Origin: Herpetosiphonaceae bacterium
GTDB lineage: Bacteria; Chloroflexota; Chloroflexia; Chloroflexales; Kallotenuaceae
Assembly: GCA_036374795.1 (NCBI GenBank)
Contig: DASUTC010000190.1
Location: 1 to 50,253 of the forward strand
Direction of reading: 5' to 3'
DNA: 50,253 nucleotides
Position 1 is the first letter of the stretch. The number at the start of each line of letters is the position of its first letter. Under the pieces are notes generated by a model. The model did no database searches. It was not told where the DNA came from and saw only the letters and a program-made list of their open reading frames with translations. Made by a program: the position numbers and the translations under genes. Of the stretch, positions 33,145 through 47,881 are shown piece after piece.

Positions 33145-34737
33145 GTGACCGCGACCGGCCCGATCTCGCCGAAGCTGGCCGTGGCAATCGCAGTTTTTGT
33201 CGCCGGGCTGGTGCTGCTGGCGCTGGCCGTGCCGCTGGCTGTGCTGCTTTCGAGGCGAAGGCGGCAGACGCCAAGCCAGGATTATGCCGTGCGGCTGCTG
33301 CGCAATAGCGCCGTGCCGTTTGCGATCCAGTTGATCAACCAGGCGATCAACTTTGGCTTTGGCCTGGTGCTCTACCGTATGCTGCTGCCGACGGCAATCG
33401 CCGATTTTGTGTTTGCCGCCTTCGTGACGACGATGCTGCTGGCGACGATCGCTGAGTGGGGCCTAAATATCTACCTGACCCGCGAGGTGGCGCGCAGCTC
33501 CACGGCGATCGAGCAGACCTTTGGCACGGCGCTGCTGATCCGATTCGTGCTGGCGGCGGTGGTCATTCCCGCCAGCGTGCTGATCGTGCTGAGCTACAAC
33601 GGCTTGCAGGCGGCGGGGCTGATCGAGTACGGCTTCGATCGCGAGGGCCTGTTGCTGATGCTGATCCTGGCCTGCACCGTGCTGCCGGGCGCGTTCAGCG
33701 CGGCGGTTTCGGCGCTGTTCATGGCGACGGAGCGACCGATCGTGTCCGCCGTAGTGAATCTGCTGACCAATATCGTGAGCACGCTGCTCAAGATCGGGGC
33801 GCTGGTGCTGGGCTGGGGCGTGCTTGGTGTGGCCTGGGCGGCGCTCGCGGCGACGATTGCCAGCGCTGTGCTGTTCGGGGTGCTGCTGCTGCGCAACTGG
33901 GGCGTGCCCCGGGTGCGCTTCGACCGCGCGCTGGCTGGCACGATGCTGCGCGCTGGCTGGCCGCTGATGCTGAATAGCCTGCTGCTGGCGGTCTTCTTCC
34001 GCTTCGACGTGGCGATCATCAAGGCGTCGCGGGCGGTGGAGCTGGCGGCCTACGATGCCGCCTACAAGTACATCACGCTGACGCAGATCTTGCCGCCGAT
34101 CGTGATCAACGCGGTCTTTCCGCTGTTTGCGCGGCAGGCCGCCACCGATCGGGCGGCGCTCCAGCGCGCCTACACCTATCTGGTGCGCCTGCTGCTGCTG
34201 CTGGCGCTGCCGATCGCGACTGGCGTGACGGTGCTGGCGCCCTGGCTGATCGCGATCTATGGCGCGGAGTACGTGGCGCTGGGCGCGCCAGCGCTGGCGA
34301 TCTTGATCTGGTATCTGCCCCTGAGCTATGTCAACGGCGTGACGCAGTACGTGCTGATCGCGCTGGATCGTCCCCGCACCATCACCGTGTCGTTCGGCGC
34401 TGCCGCCGTGTTCAACCTCGGCTTCAATCTGGCCTTTGTTCCAGGCTACGGGGTGCAGGCGGCAGCGCTCGCGACGATGCTCTCGGAGATTGTGCTGTTT
34501 GTTCCGCTGTGGTGGGTGCTCCGCACCGAGATCGAGCCGCCAGCGGTCTGGCGTCTGGCCTGGCGTCCCGCGCTAGCCGCCGTTGGGATGGCGGTCGGTA
34601 TGCTGGTGGCGGGGCAGATGCATGTTCTGCTGAGCATCCTGCTTGGCCCGCTGATCTTGTGGGGCCTACTGCTGATCGTCGGTGCGGTGCAAGAAGAAGA
34701 TCGGCGTTTGGCAAGACGGGTGCTGCGCCGGGCCTAG
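33145..34737 (+). CDS. Polysaccharide flippase-like membrane protein (MOP superfamily)
   Basis: 530 residues with about 14 predicted membrane helices, the layout of the Wzx/MurJ-type lipid-linked oligosaccharide flippases. The first helix (about 9-35, VAIAVFVAGLVLLALAVPLA) precedes an Arg-rich turn and then the repeated helix pairs. RLLRNSAVPFAIQLINQAIN and WGLNIYLTREVARS near residues 48-120 are typical of the oligosaccharide flippase family. The start is GTG at 33145, 3 bp after the mtnP stop, so translation may be coupled. No glycosyltransferases are nearby, so the glycan it carries is unknown. Confidence 0.82.
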   Translation: MTATGPISPKLAVAIAVFVAGLVLLALAVPLAVLLSRRRRQTPSQDYAVRLLRNSAVPFAIQLINQAINFGFGLVLYRMLLPTAIADFVFAAFVTTMLLATIAEWGLNIYLTREVARSSTAIEQTFGTALLIRFVLAAVVIPASVLIVLSYNGLQAAGLIEYGFDREGLLLMLILACTVLPGAFSAAVSALFMATERPIVSAVVNLLTNIVSTLLKIGALVLGWGVLGVAWAALAATIASAVLFGVLLLRNWGVPRVRFDRALAGTMLRAGWPLMLNSLLLAVFFRFDVAIIKASRAVELAAYDAAYKYITLTQILPPIVINAVFPLFARQAATDRAALQRAYTYLVRLLLLLALPIATGVTVLAPWLIAIYGAEYVALGAPALAILIWYLPLSYVNGVTQYVLIALDRPRTITVSFGAAAVFNLGFNLAFVPGYGVQAAALATMLSEIVLFVPLWWVLRTEIEPPAVWRLAWRPALAAVGMAVGMLVAGQMHVLLSILLGPLILWGLLLIVGAVQEEDRRLARRVLRRA

Positions 34738-34741
34738 TTGC

Positions 34742-34930
34742 GAGTTCCAAGACCAGGGATCAGGGTCAGGAATCAGGAGTTTCAAGTTCAACACGTCTGT
34801 TGTTCTCTGCTCTTGGTTCCGTTGTGCGCTGGGCGCCCATGCCAGGTGCCAGGCGGGTGCCAGACGGGTGCCCTCTGGGCATGGCACCCGCCTGGCACCC
34901 GGCTCCCTTGTTTTTGGTTCTTGGTGCTCC
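34742..34930. repeat. Composite intergenic repeat with 17-bp palindrome
   Basis: Seven heptamers lie at 34742-34790 (GAGTTCC, AAGACCA, GGGATCA, ...), then TTGTTCT CTGCTCT TGGTTCC (34800-34820). A perfect 17-bp inverted repeat GGTGCCAGGCGGGTGCC (34845-34861) / GGCACCCGCCTGGCACC (34883-34899) follows. Its interior GGGTGCCCTCTGGGCATGGC differs at one base from the elements at 9 kb. Further TTGGTTC units end the element. It lies between two converging genes. Confidence 0.88.
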
Positions 34931-34936
34931 CTCGGC

Positions 34937-35356
34937 CTAGGCACAGACCGTTTGCAGGTGCAGTGGCAATAGCGGCTGCTTGGAAACCGCTGGCTTGATC
35001 GCGCGGCCCACCATATCGAGCAGTTCGTCGATGGTAAACGGCTTCAGCAGCAGTTGAGCGCCCAGCCGCAGAATGTCGGCCCTGTGATCTTCGCTCTGCT
35101 TGAGCGCGGCGGTGCAGATAATCGCCGGTAGATCGGGCCTCGTGATCTTACGGACCTGCTCAATGGCGATGATGCCAACCGCCTCGAAATCCAGGAGTAG
35201 GTCGGTGATCAGCGCATCGGCGTGCTTGGGCGCAATCTTCAAAAGCTCAGGCAGGGTTTCTGCCGCGACGACCCGGAAGCCTTCATCTTGCAACACTTCG
35301 CATAGCAAGCCACGGATAACCTCATCATCATCTAAGACTAGAATTGTGATACTCAT
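34937..35356 (-). CDS. Single-domain response regulator
   Basis: 139 residues, a lone receiver domain. The acidic pocket is DDDE at 9-12, the phosphoacceptor is Asp52 (ALITDLLLD), the switch residue is Thr82 (ICTAAL), and the conserved Lys is Lys105 (LLLKPF). There is no output domain, so it works by protein contact or as a phosphorelay intermediate. The ATG at 35356 is preferred, as the receiver fold starts at once with MSITILVLDDDE. It has its own promoter (35428-35456). Confidence 0.9.
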   Translation of the reverse strand: MSITILVLDDDEVIRGLLCEVLQDEGFRVVAAETLPELLKIAPKHADALITDLLLDFEAVGIIAIEQVRKITRPDLPAIICTAALKQSEDHRADILRLGAQLLLKPFTIDELLDMVGRAIKPAVSKQPLLPLHLQTVCA

Positions 35357-35427
35357 GGCCGTTCTCCTTCGCCAGGCTCCAGATAGTCGGGTGGGACGTG
35401 GGGAGAATGTAGGGGTCGTTGCGACCA

Positions 35428-35456
35428 ACTATAACAGAATGTATGCTGCATGTAAA
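35428..35456 (-). promoter_or_regulatory. Promoter of the first response regulator gene
   Basis: On the minus strand TTTACA (35456-35451), 17-bp spacer, TATAGT (35433-35428). A good match to the housekeeping consensus, with a leader of about 65 nt. Confidence 0.7.
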
Positions 35457-35536
35457 GCGGTACGCCAACCCGCGCCCTTTACAGCAGCGGATACTGGGGC
35501 TGTATATCTCAGAGTGGGGGAGAATGCCAAGTTTGC

Positions 35537-35971
35537 TTAGACAGCTTGTTGCGCCGAGACGCCAAGCTGACGCAGGCAACGGTCAAGCTCGGCAAGCTCG
35601 AAAGGCTTGGGGAGCACAACGGTCGGCGCGATGTCCATCGTCGTGCCAATCTGCCGCTGCTTCTCGTTGGATCGCCAGGCGGCACTCATCAGCACCACCG
35701 GCAGGCGGCGTCCTGAGGGATCGCTCCTCAACTGGCGTAAAACTTCAAAGCCGTCCGTCTCCGGCATCATAATATCGAGGATCAGCGCTGCGGGCTGCAC
35801 ATCCTTGATGCAGCGGATCGCCTCGCGGCCATCGCTGCACACCGTTACATCGTAGCCCTCATCAATCAATACGTTCGACAACATATCGGCGAGTTCGCGC
35901 TGATCGTCGACGATCAAGATGCGCGTGCGTGGTGGTTGGACCTGCTCCGATTGGACTTTGCGAATGGGCAT
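35537..35971 (-). CDS. Single-domain response regulator
   Basis: 144 residues, again a receiver domain alone, with a 15-residue N-terminal arm. The pocket is VDDQ (21-24), the phosphoacceptor is Asp66 (LILDIMMPETDGFEVL) and the Lys is Lys122 (VLPKPF). It is closer to the standard consensus than its neighbour, which lies 180 bp downstream on the same strand. GGAG lies upstream of the ATG. Both regulators may serve hybrid or orphan kinases such as the one at 29-31 kb, but nothing in the sequence fixes the pairing. Confidence 0.9.
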   Translation of the reverse strand: MPIRKVQSEQVQPPRTRILIVDDQRELADMLSNVLIDEGYDVTVCSDGREAIRCIKDVQPAALILDIMMPETDGFEVLRQLRSDPSGRRLPVVLMSAAWRSNEKQRQIGTTMDIAPTVVLPKPFELAELDRCLRQLGVSAQQAV

Positions 35972-36111
35972 GGTTGGTTGTCTCCGAAGAGCTGCCGACC
36001 GCGACGTAGGCTACGCCACCGGTTGGACAGCAATACTGTGATCGAATACAGGCACAGCATCGTCGATGTGCCGGTACACCCTTTGATCCTTGGGCTACTG
36101 CGTTAGAAATC

Positions 36112-36139
36112 TGGTCGACCCTAGAGGAAGGGTCGACCA
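36112..36139 (-). terminator. Terminator of the PRC-barrel gene
   Basis: Perfect 11-bp inverted repeat TGGTCGACCCT / AGGGTCGACCA with a 6-nt loop, just beyond the PRC-barrel gene. On the minus strand it is followed by GATTTCT. Confidence 0.65.
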
Positions 36140-36152
36140 TACGATGGTGTTG

Positions 36153-37538
36153 TTACAACCCAGCGTTGTGCTCGCGTTCTTCCAGCGAGGCGCTACCCCG
36201 CTCTGACGCTCGCAGTTCGTCCGTCGAGATGTCGGGATCTTTATCATACACCGAGCTTAGCAAGATGTCGAGTACTCCTGCCTGGCGGGCCGTGTCGATG
36301 GCCTGGTGCGTGATCAGCTCGCCGACGTTGAGGATGACCCGGTCCTGCGGGTCGAGGATCACCCGCGATACCGGACGGCCAAGCGCGTCTTTGATGCGGT
36401 GGTCGAGCGTCTGCTGCTCGGTGCGCGTCTGGAAGTCGTTGACCGAGGCTTTGACGCGATCCCACAGATTCCCGGCCTCGGCCCTGGTCTGCTGGGCTGT
36501 CGCCTGGACGCGCTCGCCGACTGATGTGGCGGTGGTGCTGGCGCTGGCTTGCGCGGCATCGCCTGTGGAGAGTCCGACCGCGTCCAATAGCTCCTGCTCT
36601 TTGTGATACGTGCGCGCCCGATCGATCACGACCTCGGTGACGATCTGGCTCGGCGCGGCGATAATCACCCCCTCATTCGTGCGCACCGCGCGCTGGGCGC
36701 GCCGCCCCCGCGCCTGCTCGATCGTGGTGCTCGCGACCGCTCCTTGGACGATCTGGCTGATTCCAGCGGTAAGGCGACCGCCCGCCGCCCGGTACAGCCG
36801 ATCCAGCACGCCCTGGCGCTCAGCCTCTTCTGCCGCCAGCGGCGTGACGGACTGACCCTGCGCGACGAGCAGTGTGCCGTCGGGTGTCGCCACATCCTGA
36901 GCGACGCTCTTGCCGACGACGAACGCTTTTTGCTCCGCCGGATCGACCACGGTGTTCGTCAGCGAGGCTGAGGCACGTGCTGTTGTGTCTTCCAGGGTTT
37001 CGCCCGCGCTCTGCGCGGCGGCGCGAATGCCTCCCACCTGCTCCTCCATCAGGTCGGCGGTTTCAGGCGGCACGAACGCCACATCCTCGCCGATCTTGAG
37101 CGTCTGTGGCGCGGGCACGAACGACCGCCCGGAGTACGCATCGGCGAAGAGTCCGCCCGATACCTCGTAGCCCTCGACCGCGCCGGTCTGCTCGTCGAAG
37201 TAGAGATCGACCATCGTGCCGAGATCGCGTCCGTCGGTCGTCATGATTCTCGTGCCTCGCAGCACGTTGTTGCGCTCAAGAATCCGGTGAATCTCCGGCA
37301 CCTGCACCGCATTCACCACCGCGTTCTTCGCGGGTACGATCACCGCGTCCGGCCCGATCGATTGGATACTTTGCAGCGGTAGCACGCGAGCGCTGCTGAA
37401 CCAGCCGCCCTCATCGACCAGGAAGCCAAGCAGTTGATTATTGTTTTGATCGAAGAGCAGATCCTTGATGCTTTCACATTGCTCGCCGCTGTCGAACGCA
37501 ACAACTGGCTTGCCCACTAGCTCTGTTCCTTTGCGCAT
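36153..37538 (-). CDS. Multi-domain PRC-barrel protein
   Basis: 461 residues from the ATG at 37538 (AGGAGAG upstream). Two PRC-barrel-like domains come first. The first, about 5-75, has GKPVVAFDSGEQCESIKDLL; the second, about 90-155, has RIMTTDGRDLGTMVDLYFDE and YEVSGG. PRC barrels occur in RimM, photosynthetic reaction centre H subunits and many uncharacterised proteins. The rest has three degenerate copies of a motif with a shape like DGTLLVAQGQSVTPLAAEEA...GVLDRL, at about 215-262, 300-340 and 405-450. They are separated by an Ala/Thr/Ser/Gln-rich helical linker. No signal peptide is seen. It is co-transcribed with the small membrane peptide upstream. The function is unknown. Confidence 0.8.
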   Translation of the reverse strand: MRKGTELVGKPVVAFDSGEQCESIKDLLFDQNNNQLLGFLVDEGGWFSSARVLPLQSIQSIGPDAVIVPAKNAVVNAVQVPEIHRILERNNVLRGTRIMTTDGRDLGTMVDLYFDEQTGAVEGYEVSGGLFADAYSGRSFVPAPQTLKIGEDVAFVPPETADLMEEQVGGIRAAAQSAGETLEDTTARASASLTNTVVDPAEQKAFVVGKSVAQDVATPDGTLLVAQGQSVTPLAAEEAERQGVLDRLYRAAGGRLTAGISQIVQGAVASTTIEQARGRRAQRAVRTNEGVIIAAPSQIVTEVVIDRARTYHKEQELLDAVGLSTGDAAQASASTTATSVGERVQATAQQTRAEAGNLWDRVKASVNDFQTRTEQQTLDHRIKDALGRPVSRVILDPQDRVILNVGELITHQAIDTARQAGVLDILLSSVYDKDPDISTDELRASERGSASLEEREHNAGL

Positions 37539-37549
37539 CCCGGCTCTCC

Positions 37550-37684
37550 TTACGCTGCACCGAAATTCGGGATCAGGTTGATCAGACCGGCGTACTCGAT
37601 CAGCACGAAGACAACCAGTAGTAATACAAGCAGCAACACAACATACAGACCCGTATTGGAGCGCTGTCCCTCTAGCCTCGGCAT
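37550..37684 (-). CDS. Small membrane peptide, 44 residues
   Basis: ATG at 37684 with a very strong ribosome site (GTAGGAGGAGAGGG) directly upstream, and TAA at 37552-37550. The product has a charged N-terminus (MPRLEGQRSN), then one hydrophobic helix (LYVVLLLVLLLVVFVLIEYA) and a short tail LINLIPNFGAA. The PRC-barrel gene begins 11 bp after the stop with its own ribosome site, so the two form an operon. I recognise no family; the ribosome site, the hydropathy and the tight spacing are the evidence that it is real. Confidence 0.75.
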   Translation of the reverse strand: MPRLEGQRSNTGLYVVLLLVLLLVVFVLIEYAGLINLIPNFGAA

Positions 37685-37780
37685 TTCCCTCTCCTCCTAC
37701 GCGCCCAGCAATGGATATATCTGTGGTTCGCACGCAATTTGTGTGCCAATATCCGCCGGATTCGAGAGGATCGAGCGCGC

Positions 37781-38413
37781 TCAATCCAGCGTCATATTGT
37801 GCTCGTTGGCCCGCGCGGCGACGGCCCGAAAATCGCTCAGCACCAGCGCCCAGGCGGCATCGTAGGCGGCGGGATCGGCGGCCCGCAGCCGAATCAGGTA
37901 CGAGGGATGGAACGTGGCGATCACGTCTTCGCCGTTCGGCCCTGTGAACCATTGGCCCCGCGACTCGGTGATTTTGAATTTTTTGTCAATGACCGCCTGC
38001 GCCGAGGGAGCGCCGATGCAGACTAAGATCTTGGGCTGCACGATCGTCAGCTCGCCGTCCAGCCAGATGCGGCATGCCTGGACTTCGCCCGCTTTGGGCG
38101 CGCGGTTCACTTTGCGCCCCCGCTCGTTGAGCGAGGTAGCCCAGTGTTTGATCGTGTTGGTAATCCACAGCTTCGCCCGGTCGATGCCCGCCGCCGCCAG
38201 CGCCTCGTTGAGCACCTCGCCCGAAGGCCCGACGAAAGGCCGTCCCGCTTTGGCCTCCTGCTCGCCAGGCCCCTGGCCGATCAGCATCACCTGCGCGTAG
38301 GGATCGCCCTCGCCCCACACCACCTGCGTGCCGGTCAGATGCAGGTCACAGCGGGTGCAGGCCATGCCCTGAGCGCGTAGCTGCGCCATCGTCGTCGTAC
38401 GTTCGTCCGCCAT
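37781..38413 (-). CDS. Family 4-type uracil-DNA glycosylase
   Basis: 210 residues. Removes uracil from DNA to start base excision repair. The family 4 [4Fe-4S] form is indicated by four cysteines: CTRC at 19-22, then one in VQACRIW and one in ILVCIG. The catalytic water loop is GQGPGEQEAKAGRPFVGPSG, and the leucine-loop motif is ATFHPSYLIR. This class is common in thermophiles and many Chloroflexota. AAAGGAA precedes the ATG at 38413. It lies 19 bp after uvsE on the same strand, in a run of DNA repair genes. Confidence 0.92.
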   Translation of the reverse strand: MADERTTTMAQLRAQGMACTRCDLHLTGTQVVWGEGDPYAQVMLIGQGPGEQEAKAGRPFVGPSGEVLNEALAAAGIDRAKLWITNTIKHWATSLNERGRKVNRAPKAGEVQACRIWLDGELTIVQPKILVCIGAPSAQAVIDKKFKITESRGQWFTGPNGEDVIATFHPSYLIRLRAADPAAYDAAWALVLSDFRAVAARANEHNMTLD

Positions 38414-38432
38414 GCTGCTGTTCCTTTGTCGA

Positions 38433-39476
38433 TTAGTCGTCGCCCGCCTCCGCCTCCAACAGCTCCTCTGTCCGCTCTTCGTCTTCGGCGCTGGGCCGCG
38501 CTTCCAGTCCGAATCGGGCCGCGACATCGGGCGCGTAGCGCGGTAGATCGCGGCGAATCCGCAGCAGCGCCAGATCTTTGGACTTTGCCTCAAGCATCAC
38601 GTCGAACTCCAGATCGTCCGCCATGCGCATGAAGGAGATCAGCTCGAACGGATTCAAAAAATCGGCATGGCCGGTCCAGATCGGCTCTTGCAGCACGGTT
38701 TCCGTTTTGCCGGTCTTGCGATTCTTGCGCTTGATCTCGCGCATCTCGGTGCGCGGCGACGAGTAGTGGATTTTAGGCCGCACGCCCTCCGGCCACGATC
38801 GGATAAACCGCTCCAGCGTCGGGCGCAGCTCCAGGCTCTCAGGATTGTTGCACCAGTGGTGCTGGTAGTCGAAGACCAGACGCACGCCGGTCTGCTCGTG
38901 GATCGAGAGCACGTCGGCGGCGCTGTAGCGAATATCGTCGTTTTCGAGCACCAGCCGTCGACGCACCGGCTCCGGCAAGCGCTGGTAGGTTTCGATCCAC
39001 CGCTGGCAGCCGCTCCCACGATCGCCGTAGGTGCCGCCGACATGGATCACCAGCACGGCCTCCGGCCCCAGTTCCATACAATCCAGCATTTCGGCCTGCG
39101 CTTCCAGATCCCAGATGCTTTTGTCCACCAGCGCCCGGTCGGGGCTGTTGAGCACCACAAACTGCGACGGATGAAACGATAGCCGCAGCCCTTGCGCCCG
39201 CGCCAGCGCTCCAAGCTCGCGCAGCTCACGGCGGCATTGCTTGATCTGGCCGTGAAACTGCGGCATGTCGGGATGCGTCACGTATGGCGCAATATCCGAC
39301 GACATCCGGTACATCGTGATGCTACGACTGTCGAGATACGCGAAGATCTGCCGCAGATAGTCCAGCGATACGCTGAGATGCGGCTCGTTTTGCCAGCGGC
39401 GCGCGTCGTTGCTTTTAAGTCCGGGCTGTCCCAGCACTTTGACCGCAAATCCAAAGCGTCGCGCCTGTGTGTTCAA
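38433..39476 (-). CDS. uvsE: UV damage endonuclease UvsE (UVDE)
   Basis: 347 residues, TIM-barrel nuclease that nicks DNA 5' to UV photoproducts and other lesions, as an alternative to nucleotide excision repair. Family features: LRLSFHPSQFVVLNSPD (its His is a metal ligand), VIHVGGTYGDR, RRLVLENDDIRYS and LVFDYQHHWCN, then KIHYSSPR near residue 240 and HADFLNPFEL. These supply the His, Glu and Asp metal site. The start is TTG at 39476 with GAAGGAG eight bases upstream. It overlaps the stop of the DHH phosphoesterase gene (TTGA). Confidence 0.94.
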   Translation of the reverse strand: MNTQARRFGFAVKVLGQPGLKSNDARRWQNEPHLSVSLDYLRQIFAYLDSRSITMYRMSSDIAPYVTHPDMPQFHGQIKQCRRELRELGALARAQGLRLSFHPSQFVVLNSPDRALVDKSIWDLEAQAEMLDCMELGPEAVLVIHVGGTYGDRGSGCQRWIETYQRLPEPVRRRLVLENDDIRYSAADVLSIHEQTGVRLVFDYQHHWCNNPESLELRPTLERFIRSWPEGVRPKIHYSSPRTEMREIKRKNRKTGKTETVLQEPIWTGHADFLNPFELISFMRMADDLEFDVMLEAKSKDLALLRIRRDLPRYAPDVAARFGLEARPSAEDEERTEELLEAEAGDD

Positions 39477-40564
39477 TCTTGGACGCTCCTTCGATCTCTA
39501 CCGTTCTCCTGCGATTGTACGTGCATTTCCGGCCCGAACCCCAGGCCGTCGATAAACTCATTCCACGCGCTGTAGCGCAGCATGCCGCCGCTGGCCTGAT
39601 CGTGGCCGTGCCCATAGGCAGCGCCCGCATCGGCTGGCGCGTGCTGCCGCAGAAAATCTAGCAGGTTTAGTTCCCTGGGAGCGCGGGCGCTAAAGTTGAC
39701 GTAGCCCGGCAGGTAGCCGGTATTAACGCCCAGGACGATATACGTCGGCAGCCGCGTGCGCCAGATCTGCGCGATCAGCGGATGGACCTGGCATGGTGTG
39801 TGGATGCGGATCGCCGCGACGTTGCCGCTGAATCTGGGCGCGGCCTTTTTCGCCTCGGCAAAGGCGCGATTGACCTCGGTCTTAGCCTGTTTGAGCCGCT
39901 CGACTTCGGGAGCGGCTCCGCTGATGATCGCGCGCGGCTCGTCGCTAGTCAGCAGCAGGTGGAGCGCCGGAGTTGTGTCGCCGCTGGCGGAGCGGCGGGG
40001 CGCGTTCAGCAGGGTAGTTGCCTCGCGCAGCGGTGTGGCCTTGTAGCGCCGCCTGGCATCGTCCAGCAGCGCGAACGGCGCGCGCTCGCCGATGTCGCTC
40101 AGGATGCTGATCGCGGCGATCCAGCACCAGGCGTCAGTGTCCGTCACCGCCGAGGCGCACCAGTAGGCCAGCAGGCCCGCTGTCGGCGTCGGATCGTGGC
40201 CGTAACCCGTCAGCAGCGCTGCGTTCGGCGCGACGCCCGCCGGACGGTGGTGGTCGATCAGCAGCGTGGGTACGTCCGCAAGGATCGGCTGGTCGCGGCT
40301 GCCCAGGTCGGCGACGATCAGCGCCTGCGGCTTCACGCGGTCAAGGCGGTCGCGGACGCTTGCCGACCAGCCATGCTCACCCTTGCGCGTCACTTCCACC
40401 GCGACCGTATGCCCAAGCTGGCGCAGCGCGCGGACGAGGATCGCCCCTGCCGCGATCCCATCCGCGTCGCTATGACATAACACGGCGATGGTCGGCCCGT
40501 GGACGAGCCGACCGACGAATGCCCGAAATTGCTGTTGTAGATCGTCTATATCGGCTGCCCGCAT
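39473..40564 (-). CDS. DHH family phosphoesterase (RecJ-like)
   Basis: 363 residues. Motif I is HSDADG (about 32-37), motif II VADLGSRD, motif III LLIDHHRP (the DHH signature), and motif IV SILSDIGE. The C-terminal DHHA1 domain ends with AYGHGHDQASGG. Such proteins are metal-dependent exonucleases or nano-RNA/cyclic dinucleotide phosphodiesterases. The protein lacks the long C-terminal OB-fold domain of full RecJ, so whether it acts on DNA or on small nucleotides is open. Translational overlap with uvsE and closeness to a UDG favour a repair role. Confidence 0.85.
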   Translation of the reverse strand: MRAADIDDLQQQFRAFVGRLVHGPTIAVLCHSDADGIAAGAILVRALRQLGHTVAVEVTRKGEHGWSASVRDRLDRVKPQALIVADLGSRDQPILADVPTLLIDHHRPAGVAPNAALLTGYGHDPTPTAGLLAYWCASAVTDTDAWCWIAAISILSDIGERAPFALLDDARRRYKATPLREATTLLNAPRRSASGDTTPALHLLLTSDEPRAIISGAAPEVERLKQAKTEVNRAFAEAKKAAPRFSGNVAAIRIHTPCQVHPLIAQIWRTRLPTYIVLGVNTGYLPGYVNFSARAPRELNLLDFLRQHAPADAGAAYGHGHDQASGGMLRYSAWNEFIDGLGFGPEMHVQSQENGRDRRSVQD

Positions 40565-46811: not shown

Positions 46812-46949
46812 ACAATCATCGCGGCGATTGGGCGGTGGTTGCTGGCACATGCCTTGCCCAGCCGGACCGCGTAGCGCGCGAGCCATAACTGACAGGCGTT
46901 ACGCGGTGAGCATTCCGGACCTGCGGCAGAGCGGTACACCGTCTTTTTG

Positions 46950-47014: not shown

Positions 47015-47881
47015 ATGTCCGAAGACGAGAATCAGCAGCTTCAGCCGCCGCAGCATCAGGAGCGTCAGCCCGGCATTGAGTCGGAGATGACGCCGCGCCC
47101 GGAGGCAGAGGATGCGTCGTACCGGGGCAGCGGCAAGCTGAGCGGTAAAGTGGCGTTAATTACGGGCGGCGACAGCGGCATCGGGCGGGCGGTGGCGATC
47201 GTGTTTGCCAAGGAAGGAGCGGACGTAGCGATCGTCTATCTTGACGAGCATCAAGACGCCGAGGAAACCCGGCGGCAGGTCGAGCAGGAGGGCCGTCGCT
47301 GCCTGACGATCGCGGGTGATGTCGGAGACGAGCAGTTTTGCCGTCAGTCGGTGCGGCAGACCGTCGATCAGCTTGGCCGCCTCGATATTCTGGTCAACAA
47401 CGCCGCCGAGCAGCATCCGCAGGAGAGCATCGACAAGATCAGCGCCGAGCAGCTGGAGCGCACGTTCCGCACTAATATTTTCGCCATGTTCTACCTGACC
47501 ACGGCGGCGCTGCCGCATCTGGGCCAAGGCAGCGCGATCATCAACACCACGTCGGTGACGGCCTACAAGGGCAGCCCGCAGTTGCTCGACTACTCATCGA
47601 CCAAGGGCGCGATCGTGGCGTTTACGCGCTCGCTGTCGATGTCGCTGGTCGAGCAGGGCATTCGGGTCAACGGCGTCGCGCCCGGCCCGATCTGGACGCC
47701 GCTGATCCCGGCGACCTTCCCGCCCGACAAGGTCGCCAAGTTCGGCGCGGACGTGCCGATGAAGCGAGCGGGCCAGCCCGAAGAGGTGGCGAAATGCTAC
47801 GTCTTCCTGGCCTCCGATGACTCGTCGTACATCAGCGGGCAGATTTTGCACCCGAACGGCGGCGAGATTGTGAACGGCTAG
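47015..47881 (+). CDS. Short-chain dehydrogenase/reductase (YghA-like)
   Basis: 288 residues. NAD(P)-binding motif TGGDSGIGRAVA (50-61), the NNAAEQ strand (128-133), and catalytic Ser180, Tyr193 and Lys197 (INTTS and DYSSTKGA). A 45-residue N-terminal arm, rich in Gln, Glu and Pro and ending KLSGKVALI, is typical of the YghA/general stress protein 39 subgroup. The C-terminal motif GQILHPNGG also fits. The arm may mediate tetramer contacts. The substrate is unknown; members act on aldehydes or sugars. AAAGGAG lies upstream of the ATG. Confidence 0.9.
   Translation: MSEDENQQLQPPQHQERQPGIESEMTPRPEAEDASYRGSGKLSGKVALITGGDSGIGRAVAIVFAKEGADVAIVYLDEHQDAEETRRQVEQEGRRCLTIAGDVGDEQFCRQSVRQTVDQLGRLDILVNNAAEQHPQESIDKISAEQLERTFRTNIFAMFYLTTAALPHLGQGSAIINTTSVTAYKGSPQLLDYSSTKGAIVAFTRSLSMSLVEQGIRVNGVAPGPIWTPLIPATFPPDKVAKFGADVPMKRAGQPEEVAKCYVFLASDDSSYISGQILHPNGGEIVNG

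Follow-up and report, generated by a model that had tools for sequence, protein, structure and literature searches.

A conserved 44-residue membrane peptide gene behind a sigma-54-type promoter element and ahead of a PRC-barrel gene in Chloroflexia

The locus

Is the 44-codon open reading frame that lies directly ahead of a PRC-barrel gene in a Herpetosiphonaceae bacterium a true gene and, if so, what drives its expression and what does its product work with? We analysed the window, a stretch of 50,253 nt (contig DASUTC010000190.1) from a genome of 7.7 Mb in 373 contigs (G000 in what follows). A sequence-only reading of this DNA had proposed a 44-residue frame with a strong ribosome site, a hydrophobic helix and a position 11 bp upstream of the PRC-barrel gene. 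Each of these proposals was borne out: the frame runs from ATG to TAA at 37684-37550 on the minus strand (translation MPRLEGQRSNTGLYVVLLLVLLLVVFVLIEYAGLINLIPNFGAA), the ribosome site lies at 37698-37691, the hydropathy maximum over 19 residues is 3.18, starting from residue 11, and the PRC-barrel gene occupies 37538-36153. That reading did not mention a sigma-54-type promoter or the company of stress genes. The features of the unit are as follows.

37734..37748, minus strand: sigma-54-type -24/-12 element TGGCACACAAATTGC, 64 bp upstream of the peptide ATG
37691..37698, minus strand: Shine-Dalgarno sequence AGGAGGAG of the peptide gene, 6 bases from the ATG
37550..37684, minus strand: gene of a 44-aa single-pass membrane peptide (MPRLEGQRSN... 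family), assigned from sequence and conservation
37544..37549, minus strand: ribosome site GGAGAG of the PRC-barrel gene, directly 3' of the peptide TAA (37552-37550)
36153..37538, minus strand: gene of a PRC-barrel protein, 461 aa, with two PF05239 stretches (E 9.8e-22) and a C-terminal helical part
36112..36139, minus strand: hairpin 3' of the PRC stop codon, 11 bp stem, found by folding, without a clear T run

The order of the unit is thus -24/-12 site, peptide gene, PRC-barrel gene and hairpin. The hairpin (-21.5 kcal/mol, z -4.63, with none of 200 shuffles equally stable) possibly marks the end of the operon; a scan of 34900-38500 for the terminator consensus gave no site. In relatives, seven 60-nt foldings were made across the 120 nt past the PRC gene, and the most stable of them reached -25.1 (G001), -19.6 (G002), -25.2 (G003), -27.5 (G012) and -18.2 kcal/mol (G004), these values being free energies with no shuffle comparison.

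Distribution and gene order

The frame was to be doubted if close relatives lacked it. A search of 82 genomes of the order with the peptide profile found it kept in eight, and the proposal stands: carriers are all six genomes of the window's family (G000-G005, G000 being the window's own) and two genomes of a second family (G012 and G030). Genus g4, with six genomes, and families f3 and f4 gave no match to the profile. In a sample of the phylum, seven of 400 genomes matched the peptide, three clearly and four weakly and partially. We put the weak partial matches in G201, G068, G142 and G185 (E 3e-5 to 4e-4; frames 119 to 607 aa long) down to chance similarity in the hydrophobic part, and likewise a further weak match within G000 (E 0.68). 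In a named collection of 84,980 species the pattern appeared in seven stretches, four of which were confirmed (LB3_2, CP_BM_RX_R8_21 (Chloroflexota), LB3_1 and Herpetosiphonaceae bacterium OHK22); these four fall among the eight peptide genomes and do not add to them. A search of a plasmid collection with the peptide gave no match.

Of 60 genomes, G000 among them, 17 have a PRC match, and the long matches are those of G000, G001, G002, G003, G004 and G012. All six long orthologues have the small peptide gene directly upstream, and in each of them the ribosome site of PRC touches or overlaps the stop codon of the peptide. The check suggested in the sequence-only reading, a look for such a small gene ahead of PRC genes in relatives, thus came out in its favour, and the close coupling that it had noted in the window was confirmed. 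Ahead of PRC matches of lesser length (some 130 to 205 residues) no such small frame was seen in listings judged by eye.

The wider context, determined by tblastn, is variable. G000 and G001 have UvdE, UDG, the peptide, PRC and two response regulators; G002 has the same set minus the UDG match; G003 has no UDG match and a single response regulator, followed by the contig end. In G004 and G012 only the peptide and PRC of the G000 set are found within 11 to 12 kb. In G005 UvdE, UDG, the peptide and two response regulators are present and PRC is absent, and in G030 the peptide alone of the G000 set is found in 3.1 kb (1.5 kb on each side). PRC therefore follows the peptide in six of the eight peptide genomes. 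The two stand-alone response regulators of the window (34937-35428 and 35537-35971, minus strand) are kept downstream in G001, G002 and G005, in the last of these without PRC.

Is the peptide an obligate anchor of the PRC-barrel protein?

Adjacency and coupling in all six genomes with the long PRC protein are what one would expect of an obligate membrane anchor or subunit, that is, of a split version of the layout of PuhA, the H subunit of the photosynthetic reaction centre, which has one membrane helix and a PRC-barrel. The PRC protein does match the PuhA model, faintly (E 0.034) and at 13.6 bits against a cut-off of 200, far below family level. The two systems share a membrane helix plus a PRC-barrel protein and differ in that here two genes are used and the peptide occurs also without an adjacent PRC gene. 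An obligate partnership is disfavoured because the promoter and the peptide are retained without an adjacent PRC gene in G005 and G030, and in G005 the PRC found elsewhere is only a distant match (35% over residues 1-155). We consider such an obligate anchor unlikely. As G005 and G030 keep promoter and peptide, the peptide should have a role of its own or another partner there. Docking of the PRC-barrel protein in a less exclusive manner is a tentative proposal, possible rather than probable. A paper on a PRC-barrel protein and a small membrane protein in one operon was not found in the open-licence PubMed Central literature.

The PRC protein itself resembles the YlmC/YmxH PRC-barrel proteins through a weak NCBIfam match over residues 6-68 (23.7 bits, below the cut-off of 44.2), that model having 76 positions against 461 residues here. 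Its structure was predicted with low confidence (pLDDT 58, pTM 0.22); judged by eye on this model, the C-terminal half seemingly contains three similar strand-strand-helix-helix modules (about 208-251, 278-321 and 387-428). Comparison of the PRC profile with solved structures gave no match at E 0.1. G005 also has a PRC-barrel paralogue on contig C2 (1591312-1592539), which follows rpoN on its strand at a distance of a few hundred bases.

The promoter element

A pattern [CT]GGC-N7-TTGC is located 54-69 bp upstream of the peptide ATG in all eight genomes, one per 110 bp; its background in the fetched loci is about 0.027 per 110 nt (an over-estimate), and the eight genomes are related rather than independent. 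The exact form TGGCAC-N5-TTGC is present in five of the eight; it is altered in G004, G012 and G030 with GGC and TTGC retained. The sigma-54 consensus has GG at -24 and GC at -12. A sigma-70-like site upstream of the peptide was not found in the scan of 34900-38500. Since the site is present in 8/8 genomes and PRC in 6/8, it is the peptide together with the sigma-54-type site that makes up the constant unit. Judged by its sequence, the peptide promoter is very probably of sigma-54 type.

The presence of the machinery agrees with this assignment. An rpoN match was observed in 24 of 60 genomes, including all eight peptide genomes (partial in G001). Six of the eight (G000, G002, G004, G005, G012 and G030) have an NtrC-class activator that combines receiver, AAA and lid domains, as does G021; an HTH_8 match was seen in the activators of these six, not in that of G021. 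No activator was found in G003, whose assembly is 86% complete, and G001 (80% complete) has only a different activator of 657 aa. A second activator-domain protein of 646 aa occurs in G005. Among genomes without rpoN, at E 1e-30, G010 has no activator and G026 has one activator-domain protein in a 633-aa frame. In the own genome, contig C125 encodes a second activator, in which neither a receiver nor an HTH domain was matched at E 0.01; this atypical activator lies about 10 kb from the N-terminal part of a second RpoN, which is cut by the contig end and has a sigma-54-type box 77 bp upstream of its ATG.

The locus thus shares with sigma-54 (RpoN)/NtrC-class promoters the -24/-12 GG and GC at canonical spacing and the presence of rpoN and a receiver-AAA activator; it differs in that the genes downstream are of general-stress type and that no activator site was found. 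A gapped dyad search in 26 upstream stretches gave best dyads in 8/26, with shuffles reaching up to 6; these dyads were G+C-rich and no clear activator site emerged.

This last result, together with motif counts that do not follow rpoN, would fit a box that serves some other factor in front of a genuine gene. Numbers of N5 matches against matches to the reversed pattern were 206/86 in six genomes with rpoN (G000, G002-G005 and G012) and 164/71 in six without it; N5 against N6, with one extra base in the spacer, the numbers were 206/100 and 164/114, respectively. Further genomes with rpoN gave N5/reversed/N6 counts of 46/9/32 (G006), 55/11/40 (G021), 29/13/7 (G013) and 21/6/6 (G017). We rejected the genome-wide counts as a proof that a sigma-54 regulon exists, as relatives without rpoN exceed the reversed pattern to a similar degree and one of them (G010, 28/6) has a high N5/N6 ratio. 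Because the 15-bp motif spans five codons, reading-frame bias may inflate N5 counts in any genome. Still, a -24/-12 layout in 8/8 genomes within a narrow range of distances, the retention of GGC and TTGC where other bases differ and an rpoN match in every peptide genome speak against another factor, which we regard as improbable.

A box TGGAAY-N3-ATGTGCTTT was noticed upstream of six PRC paralogues of genus g4 (L009, L010, L011, L012, L014 and L016), its GG and GC being spaced as in sigma-54 sites; it is perhaps a variant -24/-12 site.

Genes behind the motif

The own genome contains 43 occurrences of TGGCAC-N5-TTGC. Pfam families downstream of some matches include SOD, SRPBCC, YflT with DUF2382, DUF892, HSP20, a zinc-ribbon protein and a nucleotidyltransferase, and further FKBP, SDR (172 bp away), TerC, a response regulator and the second RpoN N-terminal part; others gave no match. 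The 20 proteins scanned with Pfam were picked by hand and included matches from G002, G003, G005 and G012, so these family names are not a random sample.

Comparison of G000, G002, G005 and G012 is more informative as to conservation of position. Here 24 of 130 N5 matches fell into nine clusters conserved between genomes (SOD, SRPBCC, YflT, DUF892, HSP20, CsbD, nucleotidyltransferase, zinc ribbon and the peptide); SOD, HSP20, YflT, DUF892, CsbD and SRPBCC each occur behind the motif in at least two of the four genomes. In the spacing control (N6) 0 of 50 matches clustered (P 3e-4), a comparison in which the larger N5 set is favoured by size alone; matches examined were 130 of 133 for N5 and all 50 for N6. 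A start with a Shine-Dalgarno sequence 35-160 bp downstream was found for 76/130 N5 and 14/50 N6 matches (P 4e-4). Of the 43 matches in the own genome, 34 are outside all nine clusters and several seem to be within long open reading frames. A looser comparison, including part of the G003 and G004 matches, produced more groups, some of them doubtful. As raw counts do not separate genomes with rpoN from those without it, our claim of a regulon is drawn only from position and conservation; on these grounds we hold, on balance, that the peptide belongs to a stress regulon.

Two side observations concern the motif. The window has a second exact TGGCAC-N5-TTGC at 46843-46857 (plus strand), 172 bp ahead of an SDR gene (47015-47881); short-chain dehydrogenases are among the genes known from stress regulons. 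At three loci (L107, L124 and L126) a very hydrophilic protein of 60-96 residues comes directly behind a sigma-54-type box.

Properties of the peptide

The 44-residue peptide has one predicted membrane helix, and the best 19-residue stretch has a hydropathy of 2.4-3.4 across the eight members of the family. The net charge is 0 to +3 ahead of the helix and -2 to +1 behind it. Because the charge ahead of the helix is the higher one in 8/8 members, by a margin of 1 to 5, the N-in topology is likely, for some members by a single charge. Eight positions (M1, P2, R3, L4, S9, N10, G12 and G33) are invariant across seven aligned peptides; the peptide of G030, which is outside this alignment, retains MPRL and SN and has P at position 12 and D at position 33.

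A small single-helix peptide in the company of stress-type promoters brings to mind the TisB-type toxins, membrane-perturbing peptides; by analogy, the product would be induced under stress and lower the membrane potential in favour of dormancy. Yet in this family the polar head MPRLxGxxSN and the helix end are conserved, the peptide forms a unit with a PRC-barrel protein, and an Rfam scan of 34000-40000, which detects described antitoxin RNAs only, gave no match; we regard a toxin of this type as improbable.

Codon differences in the two closest pairs are dominated by the third position (15/4/20 at positions 1/2/3 for G000-G001 and 6/3/21 for G002-G003), with dN 0.20 against dS 1.21 and dN 0.11 against dS 1.29, respectively. 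The notion of a chance open reading frame, or of a leader whose amino acids are of no importance, has the short length alone in its favour and can be practically dismissed given dN far below dS, the eight invariant positions and the retention of the peptide across differing gene contexts. From its sequence conservation we regard the frame as a true gene with certainty.

Database searches placed the peptide in no described family: among seven members scanned with Pfam the best E-values were 0.014 or weaker (11.5 bits for member 1 against a cut-off of 25), and the top NCBIfam score for three members was 15.3 bits against a cut-off of 40. The 44-residue membrane protein is so far uncharacterised and represents a conserved unnamed micro-protein family.

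Proposed mechanism and its meaning

The explanation that we favour, with a probability of roughly 60%, is that a sigma-54 stress regulon includes a bicistronic peptide-PRC mRNA, whose membrane micro-protein probably docks the PRC-barrel protein. Sigma-54 RNA polymerase, activated by an NtrC-class protein, would transcribe this mRNA as part of a stress regulon together with genes of SOD, Hsp20, YflT/DUF2382, DUF892, CsbD and SRPBCC proteins. In genomes that have the PRC gene, translational coupling would yield both proteins together. The peptide would span the membrane, the MPRLxGxxSN head facing the cytoplasm and the short tail the outside; the conserved head and an LExxGxxNLI-like stretch at the helix end may be its working surfaces. 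Under stress the peptide would probably dock the PRC-barrel protein at the membrane, and it may also have a role without an adjacent PRC gene.

Typical sigma-B targets of Bacillus include general-stress genes, and the YflT, CsbD, SOD, HSP20 and DUF892 genes behind the motif resemble such a regulon; the difference is that the promoter element is here of sigma-54 type. In the Psp response of E. coli, PspF and sigma-54 drive small membrane proteins. Compared by description and not by sequence, our locus is alike in having a small membrane protein behind a sigma-54-type element; it differs in that the partner is a PRC-barrel protein and the activator has a receiver domain.

As to the literature, the title of one paper ties sigma-54 to the bacterial exterior (PMC3162934); superoxide and oxidative stress are absent from its main text and its general-stress passages are about sigma-B and sigma-S. 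No title reporting a sigma-54 stress regulon in Chloroflexota was found in the open-licence PubMed Central literature, which is weak evidence of absence.

One could speculate, at odds a little short of even, that in this branch of Chloroflexia sigma-54 and a single NtrC-class activator make up a general-stress system in the role that sigma-B or sigma-S has elsewhere, with the peptide being among its most constant targets and founding a new family of stress-induced membrane docking peptides for PRC-barrel proteins. The finding brings to light a conserved micro-protein family that has no name so far, and it hints, in a testable way, that in a phylum which has received little study a general stress regulon may be under sigma-54.
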